Source: Litoreibacter ascidiaceicola (GTDB taxonomy: Bacteria > Pseudomonadota > Alphaproteobacteria > Rhodobacterales > Rhodobacteraceae). Taken from it: a DNA stretch of 64,000 bases. This document shows positions 2,889 to 26,234 of the stretch, in pieces. Position numbers and translations under genes: made by a program. The notes under the pieces are model-generated. The model saw only the letters and a list, made by a program, of their open reading frames with translations, was not told the DNA's origin and did not search any database. The stretch is taken from positions 62,001 through 126,000 of the forward strand of contig NZ_FQUV01000003.1 in the NCBI RefSeq assembly GCF_900129235.1, read 5' to 3'. Position 1 is the first letter of the stretch. Each line of letters opens with the position of its first letter.

Positions 2889-4049
2889 CTAAATGTTCTC
2901 GAAGATTTCAACCGCCAAGATTGTCGGTAAGTGCCGAACGACCTCTTGCCAGCTTTCGCCTTCGTCGAGGCTGGCAAATACGGACCCGCTATTCGTGCCG
3001 AAATACAGGCCTGCAGGGTCTTGTGTATCGCCTGCCATGGCTTGACGCAGAACTGTGAAAAAGCAGCTTTCTTGAGGAAGCCCGTTTCGCATGGCTTGCC
3101 AGCTGTCCCCACCGTCTTTTGACCGCCAAACGGCAGCCGCAGCATCCGGCGGGAAGCGCCCCGCACTGTCGCCGTTGAGAGGCAGGGTCCAAATCATGTT
3201 CGGATCGCGAGGGTGTATGCGGATTGGAAACCCGAAGGTCGAGGGTAGCCCTGTGGTGATATCATCCCAGCTGCGCCCACCGTCACCAGACCGCCAAACG
3301 CCATGGTGATTTTGCTGGTACAGCAGATCACCTTTCCCCGGTGCTCGCATCATATTATGAACGCAGTGGCCTGTTTCGCCATCACGCGGCGCGGCAGGGT
3401 GATCAACATGAACACACGCCTCCACATTGGACAGGCGGTTGCGCCTTTCCCAAGTCTTACCGCCATCTTCGGTTGCGAAAACGCCAGCGGCTGAAATTCC
3501 GACCCAAAGCTTCTGTGGGTTCTGCGGGTCAGACACGATCGTATGGAGCACCAACCCTGCGGCACCAGGATTCCAGCTTTCCGCGGACTCGTGGTCTGTT
3601 AGCCCCTGAATTGCGGCCCAAGTTTTTCCATCATCCTCGCTCACGAGAAGGTTGGCGGGTTTCGTCCCCGCATAAAGTTTTCCGTGTGCATAGCCCAAAG
3701 ACCAAATCTGAGAGAACTGTTCAGCGAAGGGCAGCGGCGTGTCCGTCCAGCCGATCATTTCCGCGAACTCGGGGTCGTTTGCAGCCCATTCGTCCATCGT
3801 GCCTTTGGTCAATCTGGTGACGTCCCAACTTTCGCCTTCGTCAGTCGAGCACCAGATGCCCGCGCCCGACCACTCACCGCCGCCACCCGCCCAGAGAATC
3901 CCACGTTCGGGGTGGCTGGCTAGGTGGTTAATCGGCCAGCCGTCGCAAAAGGGTCCTTTGACCTTCCAGCCAGATCTATCGGCGCCACCTAACGCCAGGA
4001 AGGCCCCCTTTGTCGTGCCGATAAGGATGGTGACGCCATCAAGTTTCAT
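2889..4049 (-). CDS. BNR/Asp-box repeat (sialidase-fold) protein
   Basis: Beta-propeller protein of 386 residues built from BNR/Asp-box repeats. At least six S/T-x-D-x-G-x-[ST]-W motifs are visible (STDEGESW, SEDDGKTW, TEDGGKTW, SGDGGRSW, SKDGGDSW, SLDEGESW). There is no signal peptide, so it is probably cytoplasmic. Relatives are annotated WD40/YVTN/BNR-like or exo-alpha-sialidase, but nothing here shows a sialidase active site, so the substrate is unknown. The ATG follows an AAGGGGG ribosome-binding site. It is tail-to-tail with dnaE2 (13 bp gap) and lies 180 bp downstream of the broken YeeE gene on the same strand. I see no obvious signal in that 180 bp gap. Confidence 0.8.
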   Translation of the reverse strand: MKLDGVTILIGTTKGAFLALGGADRSGWKVKGPFCDGWPINHLASHPERGILWAGGGGEWSGAGIWCSTDEGESWDVTRLTKGTMDEWAANDPEFAEMIGWTDTPLPFAEQFSQIWSLGYAHGKLYAGTKPANLLVSEDDGKTWAAIQGLTDHESAESWNPGAAGLVLHTIVSDPQNPQKLWVGISAAGVFATEDGGKTWERRNRLSNVEACVHVDHPAAPRDGETGHCVHNMMRAPGKGDLLYQQNHHGVWRSGDGGRSWDDITTGLPSTFGFPIRIHPRDPNMIWTLPLNGDSAGRFPPDAAAAVWRSKDGGDSWQAMRNGLPQESCFFTVLRQAMAGDTQDPAGLYFGTNSGSVFASLDEGESWQEVVRHLPTILAVEIFENI

Positions 4050-4229
4050 GGTTTTTGCCCCCTTGCATCACCCAAAATACCATAAACGTGGCGATCTATA
4101 TAGCGGTCTGGAGAATTCGACGAAACAAACTTGGCGGTGATTTGGTCCGAAAGATATAGTTTCAATCGACGATGTTTTGCACATACCTGAAACGTGACCG
4201 CGCGGTGCATGACTGTACCCAAGGATAGA

Positions 4230-5290
4230 TTAGGAAGACCAAGCGAAACCGGTAATGAGCTGTCGCAACCCAAGGGCTGCCCCAGCGAAGATTGCGGTAA
4301 ACGTGATCGGTGCGCTAAAGGCCAAAACCGAAAACGCCGAGATTCCCTGACCGATGGTGCACCCGACTGCCAAGACAGCGCCGAACCCCATGCACATTGC
4401 TCCGAGAAACTGACGCTTGAGTTCGCGCGGATCATCGCAGGCTTCCCACCTGAAATGCCCCTTGATCAAGCTTCCGCAGAATGCCCCTGTCAAAACGCCA
4501 AACACCGATCCGACGGAAAAAGAGAGACCGCCCCCGCTTGACGTCATTAGGAAGATTAGAGTTTCGCCGAGCGGTGCGGTGCGGTGAAGGTATGGCTGAT
4601 TACGGGTGCTGTGCTGAAACCTGTTGAGGCGACCCATTGTGTTCCAGCCCAGCCGCTTGCGATAGCGAGTCCGGCAAGACAGGCCCATGCGATGGATTTG
4701 GTATCTTTGAGAAAGCTGCGAGAACTCAGTGCAACCAGTCCAATTCCCGAAGTCAGTATCAGGCCAACAAACGCCGTGGACAGGCCGCTTAAGGACGATA
4801 TCAGCCCAGCGTATCCGTGGCTTTCGACTGGAATCGTTGTGCTGTCAATGAACGCAACACGGGCTGCTGCAAACGGGCCTGATAGCATCGCGTAAGCAGA
4901 AATTCCCATCACCAGAACAATCACAAAGGATCGCAGGTCGCCGCCACCAAAACGAGCGAGCGCGCCAAAGCCACAGTTGCCGGCAAGCGACATTCCGTAA
5001 CCAAAAAGAAGCCCACCGACAACGCTGGCTGCAGGAGACCAAGGTGAAATTTGATAGACTGTCTGGGCAAGATCGAGATGTCCCAAGGCCACCAAAGAGA
5101 AGCTCCCTAAGCCTGCTACTGCAACAGCGAGAATCCACATGCGAAGTCTGATCGAACTGCCTTGATAGAGAAAGTCTTCAATTGCGCCCAATGTGCAGAA
5201 GCGTCCCAATCGTGCGGCGAGGCCCAACACCATACCCCCAGCGAACCCAAAAAAGGTTAACAGCCACGCATCTGAGATGTTGTCTAGCAA
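4230..5290 (-). pseudogene. YeeE/YedE-family (TsuA-like) sulfur transporter, frameshifted
   Basis: Membrane protein of the YeeE/YedE family, whose characterised member TsuA imports thiosulfate. Two overlapping frames together make one family member. The N-terminal frame (TTG start at 5290 behind GGGAGG) carries GRFCTLGAIE and LAGNCGFGALARFGGG. The C-terminal frame carries VGCTIGQGISAFSVLAFSAP. They meet at three tandem copies of GCGGT (4571-4585). Removing one copy restores ...HTFTAP-LGETLIF... and gives 352 codons including stop, a normal length. The three conserved Cys-containing motifs are intact. It may be a real inactivation, a phase-variable state or a sequencing error. It lies 44 bp downstream of soxR on the same strand. 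Confidence 0.85.
4571..4585. repeat. Three tandem copies of GCGGT at a frameshift site
   Basis: The pentamer GCGGT occurs three times in a row inside the YeeE/YedE gene. Two copies would keep the reading frame; three shift it. A non-triplet tandem repeat in a coding region is a classic slippage site. Confidence 0.9.
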
Positions 5291-25587: not shown

Positions 25588-26019
25588 TCAGGCTCCCAAA
25601 ACATGGCGTACAATGTAAACAGTGATGCCGGTCATCACCATGAATGTGACGGTAGCTGCAATGGAGCGAGGCGATAGCCGTGCCATTCCGCAGACTCCAT
25701 GGCCGGATGTACATCCGGATCCAAAGGTCACGCCGATGCCTACAATGAAGCCTCCGACCGCCAACATTGTAGTTGAAACGGGAACCTGAATCTCCGGCAT
25801 TTGTCCCGTTGTCAGCATTACCACGACGGGTCCGGAAACCATTCCGAGGAGTATAGCGGCCCGCCAGCTGAAGTCGGCGGCGCTGGAAGGTGAGAGCAAA
25901 CCAGCCAGAATGCCAGTCGCCCCCATGATACGGCCAAGAGTGGCCATAAGCAAAATGGAGGCGGCACCAATTAGGATGCCGCCGCCAAGGGATTGCCAAG
26001 GGGTAAATACTGTATCCAC
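25588..26019 (-). CDS. YeeE/YedE-type half-transporter (PmpA-like)
   Basis: Membrane protein of 143 residues, the first half of the two-part YeeE/YedE system. GVTFGSGCTSGHGVCGMARLSPRS carries the two conserved Cys. I set a GTG start at 26019 (VDTVFTPWQSLGGG), 2 bp beyond the DUF2892 stop with AAGG upstream. The longer frame to 26067 would overlap DUF2892 and adds an unusual hydrophilic leader. Confidence 0.83.
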   Translation of the reverse strand: MDTVFTPWQSLGGGILIGAASILLMATLGRIMGATGILAGLLSPSSAADFSWRAAILLGMVSGPVVVMLTTGQMPEIQVPVSTTMLAVGGFIVGIGVTFGSGCTSGHGVCGMARLSPRSIAATVTFMVMTGITVYIVRHVLGA

Positions 26020-26021
26020 AG

Positions 26022-26234
26022 TTATGCCTTGCAGGTCTTGATGCCGAAGATCGAGTAAAGCGGGCACGTGCGGGCTAACGACGTGACCAGCATTACGACA
26101 CCAGCAATCACCGCGATGACGGTGACGATTGTGGAATTGAAGAGGGCCATGCCGCTAACGAATGGTGCGGCGAGCAAAACGACGCCCAAAACGAAGCGAA
26201 ACACGCGATCGATGTTGCCAACATTTGTAGTCAT
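26022..26234 (-). CDS. DUF2892 (YgaP transmembrane-like) protein
   Basis: Small membrane protein of 70 residues: MTTNVGNIDRVFRFVLG, two hydrophobic helices and the ending TCPLYSIFGIKTCKA with two Cys. This matches the DUF2892 domain, which forms the membrane anchor of the rhodanese YgaP. Here it stands alone, first in the sulfide operon. A trans partnership with a sulfurtransferase such as the DUF442-SQR is an inference. Confidence 0.87.
   Translation of the reverse strand: MTTNVGNIDRVFRFVLGVVLLAAPFVSGMALFNSTIVTVIAVIAGVVMLVTSLARTCPLYSIFGIKTCKA

Follow-up and report, generated by a model that had tools for sequence, protein, structure and literature searches.

A split soxT gene in the sox cluster of Litoreibacter ascidiaceicola, most likely the product of a one-unit pentamer duplication

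Introduction

The window, i.e., the whole stretch of 64,000 nucleotides of Litoreibacter ascidiaceicola DNA that was analysed here, contains a transporter gene next to soxR whose two parts lie in different reading frames and meet at a short pentamer repeat. This raises the question of what the break is: an ordinary inactivating mutation, an error of the sequence, a reversible switch, or an unusual arrangement that still yields a working protein. An earlier interpretation, made from the sequence alone and referred to as the sequence-only reading in the following, had proposed that the pentamer might act as a phase-variation switch for thiosulfate uptake.

Our analysis instead favours a simpler answer. 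The gene is soxT of a complete Sox (thiosulfate-oxidation) cluster, and it was probably inactivated very recently by a tandem duplication of one repeat unit, i.e., it would be an ordinary loss-of-function allele.

Results

The split gene and its surroundings

Window positions 4230-5290 hold the gene of SoxT, a sox-linked transporter of the YeeE/YedE family, whose coding sequence is divided over two frames that are out of phase. The main features are listed in Table 1. The gene starts with the TTG at 5290, preceded by GGGGAGGACAA, which by inspection resembles a ribosome-binding stretch, and its original stop is located at 4230. A single full-length frame of ~350 aa is absent; instead, we find one frame of 244 aa, closed by a TAA at 4558-4556, and one of 152 aa, which is open as far as about 4844. 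The gene family named in the sequence-only reading is correct: Pfam's Sulf_transp model (PF04143) matches both halves far above its cut-off of 27 bits (98 and 101 bits), covering profile positions 2-211 and 206-309, respectively. Its statement that the three cysteine motifs are undamaged also holds, i.e., Cys32, Cys106, and Cys309 (numbering of the sister species) are all encoded, though split over the two frames.

The frame shifts at about residue 238, where three full GCGGT units (forward strand) occupy positions 4571-4585. Pentamers with three units are observed twice in the window, whereas third-order Markov simulations give 0.13 on average; these simulations are codon-blind and thus under-count such repeats. 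The second one (GCGGG) is found 47 kb from the soxT tract and served as a control; its unit count is the same in L. halocynthiae.

Table 1. Coordinates of the features discussed, given as positions of the window.
Feature	Start	End	Strand	Remarks
soxT (YeeE/YedE family transporter), frame-broken	4230	5290	-	PF04143 on both halves; 92% DNA identity to the intact L. halocynthiae ortholog
soxT upstream frame, 244 aa	4556	5290	-	N-terminal part as far as the junction, then several residues in the shifted frame and TAA
soxT downstream frame, 152 aa	4230	4688	-	C-terminal third with Cys309
Pentamer tract, 3.2 perfect copies of ACCGC (GCGGT on +)	4571	4586	-	the frame breaks here; the sister species has one copy fewer
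soxR, ArsR-family repressor, 118 aa, intact	5335	5691	-	Cys49 and Cys115 conserved in relatives
soxS-like thioredoxin, intact	5783	6214	-	weak Pfam match below cut-off; homologs at the same place in Paracoccus and relatives
soxV-W-X-Y-Z-A-B-C-D region	6205	13957	+	frames intact; complete Sox system
Second YeeE-family gene, intact, full-length (355 aa)	17753	18820	+	~31% identical to SoxT
Control pentamer, 3.2 copies of GCGGG	52014	52029	+	lies within an open, transporter-like gene; same count in the sister species

The neighbouring gene is the ArsR-family soxR that had been recognised before, and it adjoins a complete set of sox genes. NCBIfam equivalog models identify SoxX, Y, Z, A, B, and C with scores above cut-off, while SoxR, S, V, W, A, and B match homologs in the sox region of Paracoccus denitrificans; we infer SoxD from its position and its cytochrome domain. 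A decay of the whole sox cluster is rejected, since the other sox frames are intact. On its other side, soxT adjoins a gene for a protein with BNR/sortilin-like repeats (window 2889-4049), which is found beside soxT in only 3 of 80 relatives, all of them Litoreibacter (3-kb flanks).

The genome holds two other full-length YeeE genes. Both are only about 30% identical to SoxT, and judged by this sequence divergence they are not expected to substitute for it. A half-size, PmpA-like YeeE gene is located at window positions 25636-26025 and covers PF04143 positions 168-306. Close to it are MBL-fold, SulP, and sulfide:quinone-reductase-like genes (named by eye from their sequence). Together, these genes would make up another cluster for sulfur handling, which is located about 20 kb away from soxT.

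Comparison with relatives

The nearest relative, L. halocynthiae (DSM 29467), carries a soxT ortholog with 92% DNA identity over the gene. Besides substitutions, its sole difference to the window is one ACCGC unit fewer: it has two units, reads ...SHTFTAPLGETLIF... and encodes SoxT in a single frame of 351 codons plus stop. This corroborates the earlier claim that the pentamer causes the frame break. Among the 80 nearest relatives from a GTDB-derived collection, soxT passes the junction in one frame and encodes the whole protein in every case (80/80), and soxR is found upstream on the same strand in 75/80. The ortholog is likewise intact in 7/7 other genomes of the genus that carry soxT. No expanded or variable-length tract was seen in the relatives examined, and a search of plasmids gave distant matches only (Paracoccus, Ciceribacter, Ruegeria).

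Given the two units and intact frame of the sister species and the intact genes of the relatives, the third unit is derived and private to the window genome. The sequence-only reading had taken two units in all reads and all relatives as a sign of an assembly or base-call error. This expectation is borne out by half: no relative examined has an expanded tract, but such a pattern points to a private mutation or an error and not specifically to an error.

We also compared the junction DNA itself. By inspection, it is CACCGCCCCGC-like, CACCGCACCGT-like, or CACCGTCCCGC-like in other Litoreibacter, with interrupted versions of the tract in L. meonggei, L. arenae, and L. albidus; only the sister species shares the two-unit precursor. 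This variety shows that the two units arose by accident from the codons for Thr-Ala-Pro and do not represent a tract that is kept.

Age of the break

Before the break, soxT differs from the sister species at 62 positions, with 8 amino acids changed over 234 codons; after it, there are 14 differences over 112 codons and no amino-acid change. When polarised with L. meonggei, 19 synonymous and 3 nonsynonymous changes fall on the window lineage and 30 and 5, respectively, on that of the sister. That is, no nonsynonymous excess is found that would indicate relaxed selection on soxT after the lesion. Together with the 112 codons without amino-acid change, this argues for a recent break, in line with the sequence-only reading. 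The missing relaxation is what either recency or a sequence error would produce.

A rough Poisson estimate limits the age. If the gene had been unselected for at least 1/10 of the window lineage, the probability of observing at most 3 nonsynonymous changes would be about 0.03 or less. Counted from the split of the two species, the break would thus date to roughly the final 10% of the lineage or less, or not be real, whereby this rough bound is based on few substitutions, a single outgroup of about 74% identity, and uneven change between the halves. The unevenness concerns the C half (window 4230-4570), for which 0 polarised changes are found on the window lineage versus 13 on that of L. halocynthiae (Fisher p 0.0008 against the N half). 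It weakens any inference from the C half alone and is possibly due to recombination.

Sequence error as the source of the third unit

A sequencing or assembly artefact, be it at the base-call, assembly, or culture level, would mean that the strain in fact carries two units and that its soxT is intact. Both the restriction of the expanded tract to this one genome among all relatives examined and the lack of any trace of relaxed selection are what an artefact would leave behind, but we regard it as unlikely. The quality of the surrounding sequence argues against it. The window can be aligned to L. halocynthiae over its entire 64 kb, with 93.4% identity and 19 gap openings, and the additional 5 bp in soxT are the only frame-disrupting coding indel found in this co-linear alignment. 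All other non-triplet gaps are compensated by a neighbouring gap, are intergenic, or are located upstream of or at gene starts. A generally poor assembly is therefore rejected, as no other disrupted frame was found in the 64 kb. Given the otherwise undisrupted coding frames and the equal count of the control pentamer in an independent genome, the local sequence looks sound, which lowers the chance of an error but does not remove it. Furthermore, the clean duplication of a whole unit at an existing two-unit repeat is what true slippage produces and not a typical short-read error.

Phase variation

If the pentamer were a contingency tract, soxT would be on with two and off with three units within a population. 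Gain or loss of one unit indeed changes the frame of soxT, and short pentamers are capable of such switching: in Haemophilus, hsdM with (GACGA)4 switches at high rate and a gene of the hmg locus shows 2 vs 3 TCAGC units (PMC2651432). Since pentamers of 2-4 units are phase-variable there, tract length alone does not decide against a switch, even though work on Campylobacter has set five units as the cut-off for phase variation by pentanucleotides (PMC6321876), and soxT has only three.

Other observations speak against a switch. The tract is not maintained among relatives, as the interrupted versions show, its two-unit precursor follows from the Thr-Ala-Pro codons, and the second three-unit pentamer of the window is unchanged in the sister species. 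In addition, SoxT is a transporter of the cytoplasmic membrane, i.e., neither a surface nor a restriction gene. With no variable or expanded tract in relatives and a precursor shared only with the sister, the switch proposed by the sequence-only reading is not supported, and we consider phase variation highly improbable. Similarly little credit is given to a related idea, namely that reversible slippage at the codon-constrained two-unit repeat might let this marine Litoreibacter toggle SoxT and thereby SoxR signalling, such that thiosulfate oxidation would change heritably and at low frequency from inducible to locked-off and back.

Unrelated lesions in other soxT genes of the family also speak against a switch. 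We surveyed 247 genomes of the family, 155 of which have a SoxT match; among the matches listed, the window's own gene is the only split one. In G198:C1 (L149), the sox-linked soxT at locus positions 4200-5150 carries an in-frame TGA at the otherwise invariant Cys283 codon. In G234:C44 (L150), the sox-linked soxT at 4637-3681 has two in-frame TGA at conserved Trp codons, while the rest looks intact. Both genes are adjoined by soxR, soxS, soxV, and soxW matches. SelA is absent from both genomes, and selenocysteine at the Cys283 codon of G198 is rejected on this ground. The TGA of G198 is thus probably a nonsense mutation, and those of G234 are likely nonsense mutations, too, rather than TGA recoded to Trp. 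Such sporadic loss by differing lesions fits a gene that the cell can do without on rich medium and that is inactivated in the ordinary way.

A functional split gene

The least probable explanation is that the split soxT still works, either by programmed frameshifting or by re-initiation that yields two associating halves like PmpA/PmpB. The family has such natural half-size proteins, which may pair (PMC11582611), an in-phase ATG (starting at 4547) follows 8 bases past the TAA and would give a C-terminal piece of 105 aa, and the C half is perfectly conserved with respect to the sister species; however, this conservation is equally explained by recency, and inspection of the sequence ahead of the restart ATG reveals no evident ribosome-binding site. 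Also, the C piece covers the profile only from about position 206-211 onwards and thus lacks the first part of a PmpA-like half, since most natural PmpA-like proteins of the genus start at about 165-181. Programmed frameshifting is rejected, given that the frame overlap has no X_XXY_YYZ slippery heptamer and soxT no homopolymer above six.

Discussion

Proposed history and effect on the Sox system

We thus return to the recent one-unit duplication as the preferred reading, which builds on the observed additional unit, its derived and private state, its recency, and the intact neighbours. The ancestral Thr-Ala-Pro codons would already have held two ACCGC copies, to which slipped-strand replication may have added a third one (+5 bp). 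The resulting frame shift at about residue 238 would end translation a few residues later and remove the C-terminal third of SoxT with its third conserved cysteine, presumably at the cost of function. The only switch-like property of this allele would be a chance reversion by the same slippage.

When the intact ortholog is modelled (pLDDT 77.7 and pTM 0.80, with low confidence precisely at 226-256), the break is placed in the stretch that follows the long central helix 197-223. The product would therefore keep Cys32 and Cys106 but lack the C-terminal helices and Cys309. For SoxT1B of Hyphomicrobium denitrificans, thiosulfate oxidation was lost upon Cys-to-Ser exchange of any one of the three conserved cysteines (PMC11582611). 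SoxT1B mutants do not oxidise thiosulfate because they transcribe the sox genes at a low level only, except when soxR is missing as well (PMC11582611). The authors propose or assume the same signal-import role of SoxT, which releases SoxR, for alphaproteobacteria with complete periplasmic Sox systems (PMC11582611). Thiosulfate uptake, i.e., the role suggested by the sequence-only reading, is in this light probably not the main one. By analogy to SoxT1B, loss of SoxT would abolish the import of the sulfur signal, intact SoxR would not be released, and the sox genes would stay uninduced. That is, we predict that the sox operon is no longer inducible while SoxR is intact. Among titles and abstracts on Litoreibacter and thiosulfate, none clearly addresses thiosulfate oxidation by the genus.

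Should the break be real, nature has provided a loss-of-function mutant of soxT in which both soxR and the sox operon are intact. It could be used to test whether SoxT imports the signal where the Sox system is complete; this role has been shown by experiment in Hyphomicrobium (truncated Sox) and is assumed for others (PMC11582611). Otherwise, the finding calls for caution: missing thiosulfate oxidation of this strain, if observed, would not represent its species.

Comparison with known systems

The window gene resembles SoxT1B and SoxT2 (PMC11582611) in being sox-linked beside soxR and soxS, in its length of ~350 aa, and in its three conserved cysteines, but it differs from them in being frame-broken (at about residue 238). 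The sox-linked SoxT of P. denitrificans is 48% identical to the window SoxT and shows the same gene order. It has been placed in SoxT2 (PMC11582611); the window SoxT may belong to either SoxT1 or SoxT2. TsuA/YeeE of Spirochaeta thermophila (PDB 6LEO) belongs to the same family (E 1.5e-13) with aligned conserved cysteines. However, TsuA is a thiosulfate importer, whereas SoxT of full-Sox bacteria is the proposed carrier of a regulatory signal.

With the GACGA tract of hsdM and the TCAGC tract of the hmg locus of Haemophilus (PMC2651432), soxT shares a pentamer within the coding sequence whose unit number sets the frame. In contrast, the Haemophilus loci differ from strain to strain and serve restriction or the build-up of surface structures, while variation of the soxT tract is confined to the window genome. 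We found nothing that sets soxT apart from an ordinary slippage frameshift pseudogene, i.e., an extra unit at a short direct repeat that is private to one genome, within a gene that is otherwise under selection. As for a recent pseudogene of this type, the change is derived, lineage-private, and frame-disrupting, and the relatives are intact. Its cause is most likely a one-unit slippage duplication and less likely a sequence error. The break of soxT is of an ordinary kind and of modest use, namely for testing the model of SoxT-SoxR signalling in a natural setting.
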